Part shown: piece after piece, positions 3,226-32,170 of the stretch
How positions within the stretch are numbered: the stretch's first letter is position 1
Layout: each line of letters starts with the position of its first letter
Origin: a virus
Direction: 5' to 3' (one strand)
Length of the DNA stretch: 32,298 nt
Virus record (IMG/VR): IMGVR_UViG_3300032116_000836
Span: 1-32,298 of that record
Notes under the pieces: generated by a model
What the model saw: only the letters and a program-made list of their open reading frames with translations
The model's database searches: none
Told to the model about the DNA's origin: nothing
Translations under genes and position numbers: made by a program

Positions 3226-5232
3226 TTATTTTGGTATGCCTATCTTTTTTGCGTACTCGGGTGTGTAACCTCTGTAGTCCTGCGAGATAGGTGGTTTGGC
3301 GACTAATGAATCGTTGACGGGTAACTTCACTCCCAACTTACGGAGGTCGTTTACGCTTACCTCGGAGCGTTTGTTCTTGGGGTCGGGTGTTACTCCCTTC
3401 GCTCTTGCCAGATACGTCTTCCGCATCCAGAAGTGATGACAGTTCGGGCCACCTTTGTACAGGAGAATATCGTAAGTGGCTGCTCCGTTCTTTCCGAATC
3501 CTGCATTCACGGACTTACCGCTCATCGCTTCGATGTCCTCAATACGGTAGATTTTGTTCGCCTGCAACATCAAACTACAGAATTCCCGCTCACCCGTCTT
3601 TTCGCCTGCGTAAGCGTACCGAACCTTGTATTTGAACCCTTCCTTCGTTACGCCATCTTGTGCGCTCTTGGCGTTCGGGAATGCGCTTCCTGTGGATGCG
3701 AAGTTCACCTCTCGCATCTTGACGATGTCTTGCTCGGAAAGTACCTCGTCACCGACCAGTTCCCACTCCTCCAAATCCTCGTCTTCACCAAGCGAGGTCA
3801 ATTCACGCACCAACTCCTCGGAGGCAGGGGCTGATGCTTCAAGCTTTTTTTGCGACTTCATTTGCGTGATGACCGCAGACGAATTGCCAGCGAACAACGC
3901 CTTCGCAACAGACGGCTCAAACTGCAACATCTGCACAAGGAAGGTGATTGCTTGGTCTTGCGTAAGAACGCCCTCCTGTACGGCTCGCATAATGTCCAGA
4001 GAGGACGCAATCTGCGCTCCGTTATACGATGCTTCTTTCTGGGCGATTTCTTCGTTCACGGTAGACACAACCTCGCTCGTTACTTGGTCGGCTTCCTTCA
4101 CTCCCGTCTCCTCCTCGATTGTTGTTGAGTCCGTGATCTTGATGTCGTTGAACTCCATCGGTGAAAGCGACTTGAAGTACAGGTTCAACGATACGTTGTT
4201 CACCGCAAGCAGCTCATCAAATGCATTCAAGATGCCCATCTGGATAGGACGGATGACCGTATTGTCTAAAAGCAAGTATGCGTTCTTGATTTCGTCTGCA
4301 TTGCTTCCCAATCCAGTGTTGTCCTTGATGCCAAAGAGCATCGGAGACGTAATACGGTGACCTACCAATACCTTTTGAGCCGACTCCCGAGAAAGGAACT
4401 CGTACTGCAAGTGGGCGTCTGACAGGGTGACTGGCTCGATCGTAGCCGCCTTTGTACTGTCATCGTTGAAAGCAAGAATCCAACGGCCTGCGTTGGTGCT
4501 GCCCTGCCACTTCTGGGCGATGGTGGAATTTATATTGTCTTGCTCCTCTTGTGGGGGAATTCCGTTATTAAAATTAATTATCATCGACGGGGCGAGGCCC
4601 TGTTTGATATTATTTATATGATAGTTCGCAATCTCCTCCTCCAATTCCGCATAAGGCAGAGCCGCCAAGTAGCGAGGGGGTGAGTAGTAGTATGAACCAG
4701 CAGCATACGGGCGGTAGTAGAAGATTTCACGCTTCTCATTTGACTGCCCGAAAGCAGCGATGCGTTGCACTCCAGTACGGTTCCGCACCTTTGTCCAATC
4801 CCAAGCATAATAGTAGGCGTTGATTTCCCCTTCTTGGTCGCACTTCTCCGCTCGCAAGGTCTGAACGGGCATATGCGTCACCTCTGCGATTGCTGATTTG
4901 TCAGAATTCCACAACACCTGCAACGCCCCATTACCAAGCCAATAGACATCGTTGGCAAAGCGGTAGGCACATTCATCCGAGATCAACCTCCGCAACTCAA
5001 GGAAGGCGGATGGATTGGAGGCGGAGTCGGTAGCGTCAAGCCCCTTGCCGTATATCATATCAACGATACCCGTGATGACTGCGTTGTTCGTGGCGGAGCC
5101 GTTCCTGCGGTCAATGAGGTATTGGTAGTAGTTGTTGTCATCCCCATACTCCACCCAATCAAGGCGGGGGTTCTCTACGATTGCAGGGGCAACGTAGGAA
5201 TCAAACTGAACGAGGCGAATGTTATTCTCCAT
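3226..5232 (-). CDS. Portal protein with a MuF-like C-terminal domain
   Basis: 668 aa. The first ~400 residues read as a phage portal: an N-terminal YGDDNNYYQYLIDRRNGS segment, NAVITGIVDMIYGKGL, NDVYWLGNGALQVLWN, and the LVGHRITSPMLFGIKDNTGLG stretch typical of the stem/clip region. From about residue 527 a separate domain carries EFC (Cys 552) and KGGPNCHHFW (Cys 598, His 599-600, Trp 602), which resembles the C-terminal part of Mu gpF-like minor head proteins. No separate MuF gene is seen, so the two may be fused. The portal start overlaps the upstream 135-aa gene by 11 nt. Portal confidence is high; the MuF reading is an inference from the Cys/His motif. Confidence 0.85.
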   Translation of the reverse strand: MENNIRLVQFDSYVAPAIVENPRLDWVEYGDDNNYYQYLIDRRNGSATNNAVITGIVDMIYGKGLDATDSASNPSAFLELRRLISDECAYRFANDVYWLGNGALQVLWNSDKSAIAEVTHMPVQTLRAEKCDQEGEINAYYYAWDWTKVRNRTGVQRIAAFGQSNEKREIFYYRPYAAGSYYYSPPRYLAALPYAELEEEIANYHINNIKQGLAPSMIINFNNGIPPQEEQDNINSTIAQKWQGSTNAGRWILAFNDDSTKAATIEPVTLSDAHLQYEFLSRESAQKVLVGHRITSPMLFGIKDNTGLGSNADEIKNAYLLLDNTVIRPIQMGILNAFDELLAVNNVSLNLYFKSLSPMEFNDIKITDSTTIEEETGVKEADQVTSEVVSTVNEEIAQKEASYNGAQIASSLDIMRAVQEGVLTQDQAITFLVQMLQFEPSVAKALFAGNSSAVITQMKSQKKLEASAPASEELVRELTSLGEDEDLEEWELVGDEVLSEQDIVKMREVNFASTGSAFPNAKSAQDGVTKEGFKYKVRYAYAGEKTGEREFCSLMLQANKIYRIEDIEAMSGKSVNAGFGKNGAATYDILLYKGGPNCHHFWMRKTYLARAKGVTPDPKNKRSEVSVNDLRKLGVKLPVNDSLVAKPPISQDYRGYTPEYAKKIGIPK

Positions 5233-5707: not shown

Positions 5708-6262
5708 TTACGACCCAGTAACGATTGTTGGTTTGGTACCTAACAATCCAGCGAACGGGTTATTCGCAATCGCTCCGAGCAGGAAGTTTGCAGGTACACG
5801 CTCTTGACCCGTCAAGGTCAAGTTGTATCCCGTAAGGTCTCCCATAGCAGAACCAGTTACAATCGAACCTCCCGTTACTTCTGAACCGTGTTCCAATCCC
5901 ATCACCCAAGAGTTGCCGTTGTTGTCTTCAACGATGACAACTGGCTTCGCCCAAGCGAGCAACTTCACCTCTTTGTGGGTGTCGGCATCTTGCTTCTTCA
6001 ACACGATGTTCAACACCTGCTCGAAGAAGGTCGTGCCGTTGTCACGGCTGGAAGTGATGGCCTGCTCAAAGTTTGAAGTTCCTTTCAAGTCGTACTTGTA
6101 GGCACTCGTGGCAGTTGTGGCCAGTTGGTCAATGACATCCGTGTCAGCGGTGTCGTAGGAAATTTGTGCCAAGTCGATGGCGTTGATGAAGTATACTGCA
6201 TTCAGTCCTCCAACTTGGTCTTTGCAGGGCTCAATGCGCCCAAGTGTTAATGAACAAGCCAT
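5708..6262 (-). CDS. Probable major tail (tail tube) protein
   Basis: 184 aa. It begins MACSLTLGRIEPCKDQVGGL, has a central FEQVLNIVLKK segment and ends with a LTGQERVPANFLLGAI motif that I associate with tail-tube-like proteins of Bacteroidota phages. Alternating beta-strand pattern, no membrane segment. The leader is AT-rich (ATAAAATAAA directly before ATG), a strong initiation context in Bacteroidota. It lies close to the major capsid gene and is followed by a strong terminator, both typical of an abundant structural protein. A second head protein is the main alternative. Confidence 0.65.
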   Translation of the reverse strand: MACSLTLGRIEPCKDQVGGLNAVYFINAIDLAQISYDTADTDVIDQLATTATSAYKYDLKGTSNFEQAITSSRDNGTTFFEQVLNIVLKKQDADTHKEVKLLAWAKPVVIVEDNNGNSWVMGLEHGSEVTGGSIVTGSAMGDLTGYNLTLTGQERVPANFLLGAIANNPFAGLLGTKPTIVTGS

Positions 6263-6268
6263 TTTATT

Positions 6269-6607
6269 TTATTTTTTATAGTCGTTAGAAATGTGAGTTT
6301 TAATTCTGTGACAGTTGGCGCATAGTGTTTGCAGGTTGCTCAAATCGTTGTTGTGGCGGTTGCCATCTATATGGTCGACATCAAGCTGGCAAGGGTGGAT
6401 AGGAATGAATCCACACATCTGGCAAGTCGCTTTCTTGTGTTTCCGATAGACATCTTTTGGTCGGACTGCTCCTTTTGTTTTATACCTCCACGATTGTTTG
6501 CATCTTTCGCAGCAGAATTTCTTTTGCTGCCCTGTCAACTGATTTGAACAGTTCAAACACAAAAGGGAGGACGAGGGTGTCTTACCCAAGCCCTCCCCCT
6601 GCGTCAT
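6269..6607 (-). CDS. HNH endonuclease with N-terminal zinc finger
   Basis: 112 aa. An N-terminal CxxC pair (Cys 17, 20) plus CCERC (Cys 32/33, 36) precedes a second finger at Cys 62/65. The HNH core follows: DVDHIDGNRHNNDLSNLQTLCANCHRIKTH (His 79, Asn 87, Cys 96/99, His 100). This is the free-standing HNH type found as a mobile (homing-like) gene in phages. It sits between major capsid and tail-tube-like genes, 10 nt after one and 6 nt before the other, so it interrupts an otherwise structural pair. Confidence 0.9.
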   Translation of the reverse strand: MTQGEGLGKTPSSSLLCLNCSNQLTGQQKKFCCERCKQSWRYKTKGAVRPKDVYRKHKKATCQMCGFIPIHPCQLDVDHIDGNRHNNDLSNLQTLCANCHRIKTHISNDYKK

Positions 6608-6617
6608 CTTTCAGCGT

Positions 6618-7550
6618 TTAGGCGTAGTAAACCAAGTCGGCACCTACTCCAAATTGAACACCAGCAGTCATCCGCATAATGAAACGTACATTTTTGCTAC
6701 CGTCCAAATCGCCCATATCCAGAACCTTCACTTCGTTGGTATCGCTCAAAAGCCCGCAGCCGAAGTACAAGTTTGACTTCTGACCAGCGACCATCTTGTT
6801 TGAACCAAGGCCTGGGGCGTGGAACAACTTGATACCTTCAAACATCAGCTCTTGATTGTTGAACCAAGTGGAACCTTTTGAGTCCACACCCGCAGCACCC
6901 AAGCCAGAAGCACCGAATCCGCCCAATGCACGGACGTAGGCCTTCATTACGTTGGTTGGGATGTAGATGTGCAAGTCCTCCTTTGCAAACAATGCGGCAG
7001 GGATAGCGTCTACTACCTTGCCCAACTCGGTGATGACGTTGGCTGCCGTTACGCCACCAGTTGCAGCAGTTACGTCAATGACAGTTGTGTCGGCAGCAAG
7101 CAATGCTTGGAAGCCGTTGAACTCACCTGCGTTGGCAGTTGCTCCAGTCCAGATCTTCTGCTCTACCCACTCGGCTACTTTAGCAGAGTTGTAGGCGATG
7201 AAGTAGTCAACGAAGTTCTTTGGCAATACGTCAAAAGCGGAGTAGCCCATTTGGATGGCTTCCCAATCGCTCTCGAAGTCGCTCTTGCACAACTCCAAGT
7301 TAACCTGCAAGAACTCGGGCTGCAAGATGCGCTCGGTCAAGGTCAAAGTGGAAGTGTCGGTGAAGTCGCAGGTCTGGTCTTTTACGATACCATCCAGCTC
7401 TACACGCTTGATTACTTCTTTGAATTTGATGTTCGGCTTAACGGTCAAGCCGCCTTTGGCGATTGTGTCGCCACTCAACAGGGCAGCAGAGATGTACTGG
7501 CCTGCAAATTGACCAGTATAAGTGGTCGTAATGCTCGTGCTTGTGGGCAT
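6618..7550 (-). CDS. Major capsid protein
   Basis: 310 aa. The Thr-rich N-terminus leads into YISAALLSGDTIAKGGLTVKPN and an ERILQPEFLQVNLELCKSDF segment; the C-terminal half has KEDLHIYIPTNVMKAYVRALG, typical of HK97-fold capsid P-domains, and ends RMTAGVQFGVGADLVYYA. It follows protease and scaffold-like genes in the transcript, as expected for a head module. A CCCCAATAAA leader precedes the ATG. No separate delta domain is apparent; the scaffold function is supplied by the gene upstream. Assignment is from sequence character and gene order. Confidence 0.8.
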   Translation of the reverse strand: MPTSTSITTTYTGQFAGQYISAALLSGDTIAKGGLTVKPNIKFKEVIKRVELDGIVKDQTCDFTDTSTLTLTERILQPEFLQVNLELCKSDFESDWEAIQMGYSAFDVLPKNFVDYFIAYNSAKVAEWVEQKIWTGATANAGEFNGFQALLAADTTVIDVTAATGGVTAANVITELGKVVDAIPAALFAKEDLHIYIPTNVMKAYVRALGGFGASGLGAAGVDSKGSTWFNNQELMFEGIKLFHAPGLGSNKMVAGQKSNLYFGCGLLSDTNEVKVLDMGDLDGSKNVRFIMRMTAGVQFGVGADLVYYA

Positions 7551-27554: not shown

Positions 27555-27801
27555 ATTTGGTTTGTAGTTCAAGTTCAAGTTGCAAGACCTTCTGTTCGAG
27601 TGCCTGCTTCTCGACCGACATCTGATAGAATTTCATTGATATTTCGTTGTGGAATTGGCGGTACTGTTCGATGGTTCGGGAGGCGTCAAAGACATTCGTG
27701 AAGTGTTGTATCTCGTTATGGCCGTGTGTCTCCAGAATCCATTGGGCAGTTGTGCCGAGGTCGATGACCTTCTGCTGGAGGAAGAACTCAAACGGCAACA
27801 C
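27544..27801 (-). CDS. Small coiled-coil protein (85 aa)
   Basis: MLPFEFFLQQKVIDLGTTAQW, then a helical body ending in heptad-like SVEKQALEQKVLQLELELQTKYEL. It starts 14 nt inside the helicase gene and overlaps the DnaA-C-like gene. Both it and its downstream neighbour end in coiled coils, so they may associate. No family recognised. Confidence 0.65.
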   Translation of the reverse strand: MLPFEFFLQQKVIDLGTTAQWILETHGHNEIQHFTNVFDASRTIEQYRQFHNEISMKFYQMSVEKQALEQKVLQLELELQTKYEL

Positions 27802-28690
27802 AATTCAACAAGTTTTGTCCGTCAATAGTGAATCCGACATTGCCCATCATCGATGTCAGCACGATCGGGTTGTCGTATGGCGTGATGCGTCCTCCCGTCT
27901 CCGTCTCCTTGACCTTGCGAATGTGGATGTGCGTATGCTTCCAGTCGGTAGGGTGACCCGAGTACCTGTGAATCACGACTACACAGTCAGAGCGGTTGCC
28001 CCACTTTCCCCCGTGTTCAATGTCTGCGATGTTTACAGGCATCGGCAGGCGGGCGTACTCGTGCTTGTCGTGGTGTACTTTACGCATTGCCTCGGTAACT
28101 GGGTGGGTGGATAGAATCAAGGTGACTTTCTCCTTGTGGGAGAACACCCGAAAGGCACTTGCCACCTCGTAGTGGTACTCGTGCATCGAGGTCTTGCCCA
28201 AGACGCTTTGGTCGGTGCGGAGGGAGTTGTACGGGTCAATGAATCCTCCAGTATATGGCCACTCGTTCAGAACCTCGTTGAAGATATTTAGCAGCTCGAA
28301 TGCTGATAGTATTTTATTCGGATTGATGAACTTGAAGTATTCGTCAATGAAGCAAAGGTCGGAGTGCATCCGTGCCTCTGGGATGAGGTTGATGGGCTTG
28401 GCGTGGAGGAACTCAATCAGCTTTCTTTGGATACTGTGAACCTCGTTCTCTGCCGTGTAGCAGAGCCACTTCTTCCCGTGGGTGATTGACTGCATCAGCA
28501 TCAAGTAAAACATAGTATGCGTCTTGCCTACGTTGGCGTGACCCGTGCAGACGATGAACTCTCCCTCCTTGAATCGCAGGAACTCGTCTATCTTCTCGTT
28601 ACCGATTCTCCCCATATCGAAGTAAGAACCTTTTTGTGCCCGTTCGAGATACGGGCTTGTGTCCATAATGGACATAATATCTGGATGCAT
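27788..28690 (-). CDS. RecA/DnaB-like ATPase, probable replicative helicase
   Basis: 300 aa from ATG 28690 (MHPDIMSIMDTSPYLERAQ); the frame stays open across the tRNA-like element upstream, which is not coding. Walker A: CTGHANVGKT (residues 48-57). Walker B: TGGFIDPYNSL (147-157). Sensor-like LILSTHPV (191-198), a WGNRSDCVVVIHR strand (230-242) and HIHIRKVKETETGG (254-267) match DnaB-like phage helicases of Bacteroidota phages. An N-terminal primase-binding domain is missing. It is the only replisome ATPase in the window. Confidence 0.8.
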   Translation of the reverse strand: MHPDIMSIMDTSPYLERAQKGSYFDMGRIGNEKIDEFLRFKEGEFIVCTGHANVGKTHTMFYLMLMQSITHGKKWLCYTAENEVHSIQRKLIEFLHAKPINLIPEARMHSDLCFIDEYFKFINPNKILSAFELLNIFNEVLNEWPYTGGFIDPYNSLRTDQSVLGKTSMHEYHYEVASAFRVFSHKEKVTLILSTHPVTEAMRKVHHDKHEYARLPMPVNIADIEHGGKWGNRSDCVVVIHRYSGHPTDWKHTHIHIRKVKETETGGRITPYDNPIVLTSMMGNVGFTIDGQNLLNCVAV

Positions 28691-28716
28691 AAGATTGGTT
28701 TTGTGCAAATAAACAA
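28691..28716 (-). promoter_or_regulatory. CCAATC leader of the helicase gene
   Basis: Minus-strand leader TATTTGC-ACAAAACCAATC-TT before the ATG at 28690. It shares CAAAACCAATC with the leaders of the genes starting at 25324, 25605 and 29303, and nearly with 29714. Because the preceding sequence is the 3' end of the tRNA-like element, it may also mark the mRNA 5' end produced by processing at that element. Confidence 0.45.
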
Positions 28717-28741
28717 AATAAATTCCAGATGCGGGAATTTT

Positions 28742-28804
28742 TGCGGTCGGGGCTGGACTCGAACCAGCATTGCCAAAGCAACAGTTGTACTGCAACACCC
28801 GACC
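28742..28804 (-). tRNA. Miniature tRNA-like element (61-63 nt, non-canonical)
   Basis: On the minus strand, GGTCGGG (28804-28798) and CCCGACC (28751-28745) form a perfect 7-bp acceptor stem. GCTGG-TTCGAGT-CCAGC is a perfect 5-bp T-arm with a canonical 7-nt loop. GCA follows (discriminator G, then CA, not a full CCA). Only 29 nt lie between the acceptor strand and T-arm, versus about 40 usually; they can form two small hairpins, GTTG-CAGTA-CAAC and TTGC-TTTG-GCAA, but no 7-nt anticodon loop is evident. So it may be a degenerate tRNA, an att-like remnant or a tRNA mimic. The anticodon cannot be assigned. Confidence 0.5.
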
Positions 28805-28809
28805 AAGGT

Positions 28810-28830
28810 GGGGAGGTGCATCACTACCCC
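28810..28830 (-). other. Stem-loop next to the tRNA-like element
   Basis: GGGG-A-GGTG-CAT-CACT-A-CCCC, a 9-bp imperfect hairpin with one A-A mismatch and one G-T pair, 5 nt upstream of the tRNA-like 5' end and 23 nt past the SSB-like stop. No T-run follows on the minus strand, so it is not a clear intrinsic terminator. It could be a processing or stability element. Confidence 0.5.
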
Positions 28831-28853
28831 CCCAGAGTCACCACCAAAACCAA

Positions 28854-29303
28854 TCAGAAAGGTGACTCTTCTACTGCTTGGCGAATTGCCATATGCGCTT
28901 CTTGCTTTACCTCTTTCTTCTCCAGCCAAGCGTTGAAGCGTTCTGCGAGATCGAGGATGTTATCCGTAGGAATTGACTTGCCTGCTGCTGCGTGAGCTGC
29001 TGAAAGTTCAACCGCTGCCTTGAGGGCAACTTGACGGACGATAGATGCGGTACGTTCTGCATCATTAGCACGAGGTGCGCCTGTTGGTCGGTTCCAGTTA
29101 CCACCTCCAGCACGCTCGACCTTAATCGTACCACGCTCGTTTATGGTGCAGTTGATGTCCTCGCCTACTTGATGCGGGGCATCTTGGCTTTTGCCGAACA
29201 GGGTTCCGCTTTGACCGTTGTCAAACTGGATTTGAAATTTGTAGAACGTGTTGCCGTCATTAGACACCCACGTTCCATTTGGGGAGATAGATACAATCTT
29301 CAT
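28854..29303 (-). CDS. Single-stranded DNA-binding-like protein
   Basis: 149 aa from ATG 29303 (MKIVSISPNGTWVSNDG), preceded by the CAAAACCAATC leader. N-terminal OB-fold pattern: FYKFQIQFDNGQSGTLFGKSQ, then DINCTINERGTIKVERA. C-terminal half: a Gly/Pro linker (GGGNWNRPTGAP) and RTASIVRQVALKAAVELSAAHA, ILDLAERFNAWL. This layout is typical of SSB-like proteins in Bacteroidota phages. It may be the annealing partner of the RecE-like exonuclease. Confidence 0.75.
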   Translation of the reverse strand: MKIVSISPNGTWVSNDGNTFYKFQIQFDNGQSGTLFGKSQDAPHQVGEDINCTINERGTIKVERAGGGNWNRPTGAPRANDAERTASIVRQVALKAAVELSAAHAAAGKSIPTDNILDLAERFNAWLEKKEVKQEAHMAIRQAVEESPF

Positions 29304-29318
29304 TTTAGATTGGTTTTG

Positions 29319-31516: not shown

Positions 31517-31708
31517 TTAGGTGCCTTTTTTTGGTGTAGTGGTGGGTTTATCCCCATCCTTGCTCATCATCAACGCAAATCCTCCCATAAGGAAGGCACT
31601 AAACTCTGTTAAAGACGCTTTCTCGAACCAAACCAAGATTCCACCAAAGGAAATCAAGATAAGGCCGATAATCGTTGTTTTTGGATTTCTAAATAATCTA
31701 TCTATCAT
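31517..31708 (-). CDS. Small two-helix membrane protein, holin-like (right copy, complete)
   Basis: 63 aa from ATG 31708, which overlaps the upstream stop; a longer frame reaches back into the neighbour. MIDRLFRNPKTTIIGLILIS, FGGILVWF, then LTEFSAFLMGGFALMMS give two helices, ending in a short charged tail (KDGDKPTTTPKKG). Being next to the endolysin it is a good holin or antiholin candidate. The diverged left-end copy is at 1-197, so the window shows two alleles. Confidence 0.7.
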   Translation of the reverse strand: MIDRLFRNPKTTIIGLILISFGGILVWFEKASLTEFSAFLMGGFALMMSKDGDKPTTTPKKGT

Positions 31709-31859
31709 TCTTAATATCTCGATTCCATCGCCACAAGGTGTACACAAAAGACGTCAGCATTACGAATAGACCCGCTATCTGATGCACCTCGGCAATCGTT
31801 AATCCACCAACGGCTAAACTCCAACTTGTCGCTACCGCACTTGTACTGTCTGTTTTCAT
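31698..31859 (-). CDS. Small holin-like membrane protein (right copy, 53 aa)
   Basis: ATG at 31859 in an ATGA overlap with the 104-aa gene's stop. MKTDSTSAVATSWSLAVGG, then IAEVHQIAGLFVMLTSFVYTLW and a WNRDIKNDR tail. One strong helix with a preceding weak one, resembling class II holins. The amino-acid sequence from Met 1 matches the left copy (187-348) throughout, although the nucleotide sequences differ at scattered sites. Confidence 0.65.
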   Translation of the reverse strand: MKTDSTSAVATSWSLAVGGLTIAEVHQIAGLFVMLTSFVYTLWRWNRDIKNDR

Positions 31860-32170
31860 TGCTCGCCTGTTGCTTCGTTGCACAATGTCGGATTGGCTTG
31901 GCAGTATGCTTGTGCGTATGCTGATTCCCATCCCGCAAACCAATGAACGGCAGAGTTAGGTACAGGCCAAACAACGTATTGTTGGAATTCGGATGGTGCT
32001 ACCCAAATCACATCCACCGCCCAACGTGGGTCAGATTCAACGAGGCCGATTTGATGAACGTAGCAATCCACAAAGGTGATTTGGTCTTCTTCCATCGTGG
32101 CGAATCCTGCGGAAAGCATATCGGTGATGAATTGGCCTTCGGTTGGCCAAGCGTATTTCAGATAGGTCAT
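31856..32170 (-). CDS. Conserved ~105-aa protein of unknown function (right copy)
   Basis: 104 aa, the counterpart of 345-665. Conserved: YLKYAWPTEGQFITDML, VESDPRWAVD, FAGWESAYAQ. Changes cluster at residues ~27-35 and ~90-104. It has ATGA overlaps with the fibre and holin-like genes, as in the left copy. Unknown family. Confidence 0.8.
   Translation of the reverse strand: MTYLKYAWPTEGQFITDMLSAGFATMEEDQITFVDCYVHQIGLVESDPRWAVDVIWVAPSEFQQYVVWPVPNSAVHWFAGWESAYAQAYCQANPTLCNEATGEQ

Follow-up and report, generated by a model that had tools for sequence, protein, structure and literature searches.

The window, a 32,298-nt stretch of viral DNA (IMG/VR record IMGVR_UViG_3300032116_000836), carries on its minus strand a 60-nt element that resembles the top half of a tRNA and has no usable decoding arm. 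Judged by sequence comparison, this element is a member of a family of units, each composed of a hairpin, a spacer of about 4 nt and a tRNA-like part, that lie just after genes. Host RNase P and RNase Z may excise the element and leave the upstream mRNA capped by the hairpin, a proposal for which we regard the case as evenly balanced.

Architecture of the tRNA-like element

The element is co-oriented with nearly all genes of the window, whose coding strand is the minus strand. Its parts and surroundings are as follows.

28854..29306, minus strand: upstream gene, 150 aa, the "SSB-like" gene of the original prediction, identity unconfirmed
28845..28855, minus strand: GATTGGTTTTG, located at the upstream gene's stop codon and able to pair with the helicase leader
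28809..28834, minus strand: upstream hairpin TGGGGGGGT-AGTGATGC-ACCTCCCCA, with spacer CCTT to the element and without a U-tract
28745..28804, minus strand (RNA runs from 28804 to 28745): tRNA-like element, 60 nt, defined by sequence and fold
28798..28804, minus strand: acceptor stem, 5′ strand GGTCGGG
28784..28796, minus strand: D-arm-like mini hairpin GTTG-CAGTA-CAAC, loop without GG
28769..28782, minus strand: anticodon-arm-like mini hairpin GTTGC-TTTG-GCAAT
28752..28768, minus strand: T-arm GCTGG-TTCGAGT-CCAGC
28745..28751, minus strand: acceptor stem, 3′ strand CCCGACC
28720..28740, minus strand: A+T-rich hairpin AAATTCC-CGCATCT-GGAATTT, 3′ of the element
28693..28705, minus strand: helicase leader CACAAAACCAATC, complementary to 28845-28855
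27788..28690, minus strand: downstream gene, DnaB-like helicase, 300 aa, PHROG primase/helicase, E 1e-30

From 28804 to 28742 the RNA consists of GGTCGGG-T-GTTG-CAGTA-CAAC-T-GTTGC-TTTG-GCAAT-GCTGG-TTCGAGT-CCAGC-CCCGACC-G-CA, in which G 28744 is the discriminator-like base and is followed by CA. The acceptor stem is Watson-Crick at 7/7 pairs and the T-stem at 5/5, and together they enclose 29 nt, filled by two tiny hairpins that offer no 7-nt anticodon loop; the original prediction had described exactly this arrangement. Of the canonical tRNA features, the element has the 7-bp acceptor stem and the 5-bp T-arm with its TTCRANN loop. A 5-bp anticodon stem with a 7-nt loop and U33 is absent, the loop being 4 nt, and the anticodon-like arm abuts the T-arm with 0 nt between. 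The D loop is the 5-nt CAGTA lacking G18G19, and there is no variable loop. As regards RNase Z substrate features, the acceptor is followed by G-CAA, CCA is not encoded and the elbow GG is missing.

ARAGORN calls neither a tRNA nor a tmRNA here, and the Rfam tRNA model, whose gathering score is 29, reaches 26.6 bits (E 0.0025). A tmRNA identity was rejected on the 60-nt length and the ARAGORN result. The minimum free energy is -27.4 kcal/mol (z -2.8), with 1/200 shuffles as good. Predicted folds place a stacked acceptor and T-arm behind a single-stranded 5′ leader, the 4-nt spacer, in the manner of a top-half RNase P substrate.

Flanking genes and leader structure

The element had been placed between an SSB-like gene and a helicase gene. 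The helicase is borne out by its PHROG match; the SSB identity finds neither a Pfam match nor a meaningful PDB match. The hairpin proposed on the 5′ side is present as a G+C hairpin, 4 nt from the element. The leader 28860-28690 folds as hairpin, tRNA-like element and A+T hairpin (z -4.7), and GATTGGTTTTG pairs with CAAAACCAATC, closing the predicted fold. In this model the leader pairing is able to enclose the hairpin, the element and the 3′ hairpin in a read-through RNA.

The leader AAAACCAATC lies a few bases 5′ of the ATG in four window genes (29314, 28699, 25615 and 25334, minus strand). Its inverse complement overlaps the upstream gene's stop codon, and the helicase leader could therefore be sequestered in a read-through RNA. 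Elsewhere in the window, a set of small ORFs occurs in diverged form at both ends (3-665 and 31517-32170; e.g. MCTPCGDGI...MIDRLFRNPKTT), a duplicated gene cassette.

Variation among close relatives

In phages whose helicases are 95-97% identical, the element occupies the same position and is 60-64 nt long. The acceptor 5′ strand, the D-like arm and the T-arm are identical across all of them. Differences (indels and one C to T) are confined to the anticodon-like arm, save in L009, where the last acceptor base and the discriminator are changed and the terminal pair becomes G-U; this group is too alike for a covariation test within it. In the alignment both stems are paired in every relative, that terminal G-U included, and nothing in it refutes the original prediction.

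The anticodon-like arm is 3-4 nt longer in close relatives, and the window and L009 are without those bases. In the L004 type it forms GTTGC-CTCATTT-GCAAT, the sole 7-nt loop with U33 among the close relatives, carrying CAU (RNA loop CUCAUUU). In the L004 type, however, a single base precedes the D-stem, the 5-nt D-loop has no GG and a variable loop is lacking, so it too is, by its sequence, not a canonical tRNA. Adding the lost arm bases back to the window copy likewise does not yield a normal tRNA, as far as the alignment tells. The suggestion of a truncated tRNA therefore stands in part: 3-4 arm bases were lost in the window and L009, yet the longer forms fall short of canonical tRNAs as well.

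In L002, a near relative of the window phage, a 159-aa ORF (1023-1502) is inserted directly 3′ of the element; it matches GIY-YIG weakly, at a Pfam E of 0.0075 that does not reach the cut-off. A mobile unit of tRNA-like element plus endonuclease was considered and set aside, this ORF having no other close relative in viral contigs.

A family of elements in other phages

Viral contigs were searched with the 21-nt T-arm/acceptor core and then with acceptor and T-arm patterns. Short elements appear in unrelated phages (L094, 53 nt; L096/L098, 61 nt; L116, 51 nt; and others), and relatives of two such phages yield many further elements with other acceptors. In whole contigs totalling 390 kb of phage DNA, a strict T-arm and acceptor finder detects 17 distinct elements, against 0 in mononucleotide shuffles. 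Together with one-mismatch members at the same loci, the strict-finder elements define 19 tRNA-like loci in several unrelated phage groups; several elements share one phage locus, and the 19 loci are not fully independent.

The middles of these elements span 18-102 nt, and perfect stems are kept across that range. Many members keep a D-arm such as GGCGTAATTGGTAACGCC, some with GG, and the anticodon arm is absent, tiny or swapped for an arbitrary hairpin. None of the elements falls within a gene that flanks it on its own strand, overlapping reading frames being short or due to chance, and the preceding gene often stops 8-50 nt upstream. Tandem elements occur in L261 (three) and L270 (two), and in L258, L261 and L270 small ORFs separate tandem elements. 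Downstream of the two tandem elements of L270, an orphan 3′ half, made of the T-arm 3′ strand and the acceptor 3′ strand, follows the stop of a 68-aa ORF (5898-5919). The elements are patchily distributed: in L252 a unit lies between its gene and the next structure, yet L254 and L255, whose next gene is 96% identical, are without it, and L260 retains a unit lost from L262.

ARAGORN misses most elements, calling L123 (Ala), L251 9422 (Lys) and L108 (Leu), the last of which was excluded from the family, and Rfam gives no match for L094 and L096 at E up to 1. BLAST of the element and its neighbourhood against named phages finds no relative, the matches being T-arms of real tRNAs. The finder, applied to cultured terminase relatives (Phocaeicola, Parabacteroides and Flavobacterium phages), returns none but one poor match, BM127P1. 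The nearest named relatives by terminase and helicase are flavobacterial and Bacteroides phages, from which Bacteroidota-type hosts are presumed rather than proven. A narrow hairpin and acceptor pattern gives 1 match in 395 Bacteroidota genomes (G289), possibly by chance and uninformative on other forms.

Some neighbouring observations stand apart. In the cultured Maribacter phage Panino (L292, part of the genome covered), an unannotated 91-nt tRNA-like sequence at 4941-5031, with the perfect acceptor TGTGGGT/ACCCACA, lies 10 nt after a CDS and receives no ARAGORN call; it is without the hairpin. A structured stretch CCCGAATGCTGCCG ... GCATGAAACAAAGGG is conserved beside the tRNA-like locus in L252-L256, L264-L267 and also L094; in the first two groups it lies upstream of a tail-region gene of ~398 aa. 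It resembles a separate structured RNA, and Rfam has no match to it in L094 or L096. L116, a phage with three tRNA-like elements, has a 525-aa GroEL-like chaperonin ORF at 5935-7512, judged by eye.

Compensatory change in the acceptor and T stems

Across 20 distinct acceptor and T-arm sequences, 96.3% of cells pair and double changes occur in 9/12 pairs. The covariation score is 0.578, whereas the shuffle mean is 0.212 and no slid control exceeds 0.122; the finder selects for pairing, and independent checks therefore weigh more than this score. When sites are anchored on the T-arm only, a perfect 7-bp acceptor is found at 14/23 sites and at 1/95 in shuffles. In G001 and G002, the same locus is recognised by common downstream flanks; the middles are wholly different, and acceptor pairs change jointly, from T-A to C-G and from G-C to A-T. 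Phages 74% identical in a neighbouring protein provide two same-locus pairs of acceptors with different middles: GGTAAGG/CCTTACC and GGCAAAG/CTTTGCC, and GGTCGGG/CCCGACC and AGTCGGG/CCCGACT. At the level of these alignments, the acceptor/T-arm helix is shown to be kept by compensatory change, with the D and anticodon region free.

The 5′ hairpin and the terminator of element-less relatives

A hairpin with a stem of at least 4 bp, at least 3 of them G-C, ends within 8 nt 5′ of the element at 14/19 loci (not all independent) against 21/223 canonical tRNAs (p=9e-10); the window element has such a stable hairpin before its acceptor. Stems differ (GCCG, GCTCG, CCTCG) around a common GAAAGA loop. 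The spacer is often ACTT, AAAT or ACAT, and CCTT or ACTT in the window group. CACTTGGTCGGGT and the 21-nt 3′ core are common to window-type and L094 elements, whose phages are otherwise unrelated, which suggests a probable exchange of elements between them. U-1 and A-4 were considered as RNase P leader marks, since in many bacteria U-1 is the leader base found most often (PMC11143913). U-1 precedes 15/19 loci, which is frequent yet not a significant excess over canonical tRNAs (128/223, p 0.09), and it was given no weight.

In helicase homologues 62-80% identical with enough upstream sequence, the tRNA-like element is absent from this gap, and an intrinsic terminator occupies it, e.g. GGTGGGG-GTAACA-CCCCACC-TTCTTTTTTTTT. 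This terminator is usually followed on its 3′ side by a TAnnTTTG-type box and then an ACCAATC leader; in helicase relatives the leader after the box reads ACCAATC(A). Within window positions 28600-28900 there is no terminator-like site, and the G+C hairpin is without a U-tract. By comparison of these gaps, the window evidently keeps the G+C hairpin, and the tRNA-like part occupies the former U-tract position. Such replacement is not general: two family members have a short-T-tract hairpin on the 5′ side or a terminator on the 3′ side.

Proposed function and alternative readings

Model substrates reduced to acceptor stem, T-stem and T-loop are still cut by RNase P (PMC11143913); the enzyme measures the stack of T-stem-loop and acceptor, and RNase Z clamps the elbow (PMC4919913). 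In the proposed pathway, RNase P would read the stacked acceptor and T-arm in the RNA coming from the upstream gene and cut at 28805/28804. RNase Z would cut after the discriminator, freeing the downstream message. The upstream mRNA would then carry the G+C hairpin and 4 further nt at its 3′ end, which would be protected as after a terminator; the 60-nt element would be released and the helicase message would start afresh. The element would thereby act as tRNA punctuation, and the anticodon half would be dispensable because it is never decoded. The conserved part is what a processing enzyme reads, and the free part is what only a ribosome reads. The original prediction offered three options, of which the mRNA-processing mimic is best supported because the stems are compensated, the middle is free, the position is intergenic, a hairpin stands on the 5′ side and element-less relatives have a terminator. 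Patchy presence among close relatives tells against it, being odd for an essential processing signal.

The same patchiness, with fast turnover of the middle as in an arms race, would suit an excised RNA that is itself the product: a tRNA-like decoy or carrier binding EF-Tu, the CCA enzyme or a tRNA-targeting defence nuclease. A stable fold with a perfect top half fits such a molecule. Most members, however, lack the anticodon loop that anticodon nucleases need, no middle sequence is held in common and the recurrent 5′ hairpin is left unexplained, and we consider this unlikely. Decay of phage tRNA genes, the anticodon part lost and the rest on its way out, would account for the confinement of window-group indels to the anticodon-like arm, with 4 nt lost there in the window and L009, for the altered acceptor end and discriminator of L009 and for the loss of the L260 unit from L262. 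Compensatory changes across members and at the same locus, stems that remain perfect around middles of 18 to 102 nt, the rarity of the 5′ hairpin before real tRNAs and the failure to find a canonical tRNA ancestor near the elements oppose it and render it rather improbable.

A role in recombination or integration, as an att-like site or a boundary for gene cassettes and homing endonucleases, draws on the GIY-YIG-like ORF of L002, the small ORFs between tandem elements and the orphan 3′ half of L270. It is very improbable, and the att-like remnant of the original prediction finds no support: apart from L270, neither the window nor any other tested contig has a repeat of either end, no integrase is found among the 18 window proteins scanned, and the 21-nt core occurs in no host tRNA among the tRNA loci fetched. 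A chance structure within a terminator-like region would agree with the modest isolated z-score, and is hardly credible given the absence of matches in shuffles and the covariation across the family.

More broadly than the preferred reading of excision by RNase P and RNase Z, and with less assurance, dsDNA phages of Bacteroidota-type hosts may end many messages both by termination and by hairpin and tRNA-mimic cassettes. Such cassettes would recruit the two host enzymes, pass from phage to phage and be able to take over the site of a terminator.

Relation to known systems

tRNA mimicry and tRNA punctuation are already known kinds. The family of such mimics is apparently undescribed so far: no phage family with this anatomy is described in Rfam, in the PHROG-side context or in the searchable literature, which includes few subscription journals, and a full-text literature search returned no case of "tRNA punctuation" in phages by title or abstract. 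Should the processing view be true, DNA phages would mark their mRNA ends with portable tRNA mimics, a form of punctuation linked otherwise to mitochondria, and the family would supply naturally occurring minimal RNase P substrates whose middles vary freely. Should the decoy view be correct instead, the element would represent a hypervariable tRNA-like counter-defence RNA. A further caution is that one class of phage tRNA-like genes escapes tRNA finders.

Bacteriophage M3 RNA and the C4 antisense RNA of P1/P7 are also phage non-tRNA substrates cut by host RNase P (PMC11143913), but they are single small RNAs, whereas the present elements form a family with conserved acceptor and T-arm at many intergenic loci. 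The tRNA-like structures of plant RNA viruses and the MALAT1 mascRNA recruit RNase P or RNase Z by tRNA mimicry (PMC11143913, and in part general knowledge); they are located at the 3′ ends of viral RNA genomes or of a nuclear lncRNA, the phage elements between genes of DNA phages. tRNA-Other, a Bacillus cereus pseudo-tRNA, is a tRNA-like gene unused in translation and linked to mobile DNA (PMC3399842); it is chromosomal and single and not a miniature with a 5′ hairpin.

Canonical phage tRNA genes have the same acceptor stem, T-arm consensus and discriminator followed by CA; the phage elements differ in a middle of 18-102 nt and no regular anticodon arm. With the intrinsic terminator of the window phage's relatives, the window unit has in common the locus and the upstream hairpin, and it is without the U-tract. 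Mitochondrial transcripts are punctuated by tRNA folds between genes, whose excision by RNase P and RNase Z defines the mRNA ends. The phage elements are likewise tRNA folds between genes; the mitochondrial marks are working tRNAs, whereas most phage elements are without an anticodon loop and have a hairpin attached on the 5′ side.
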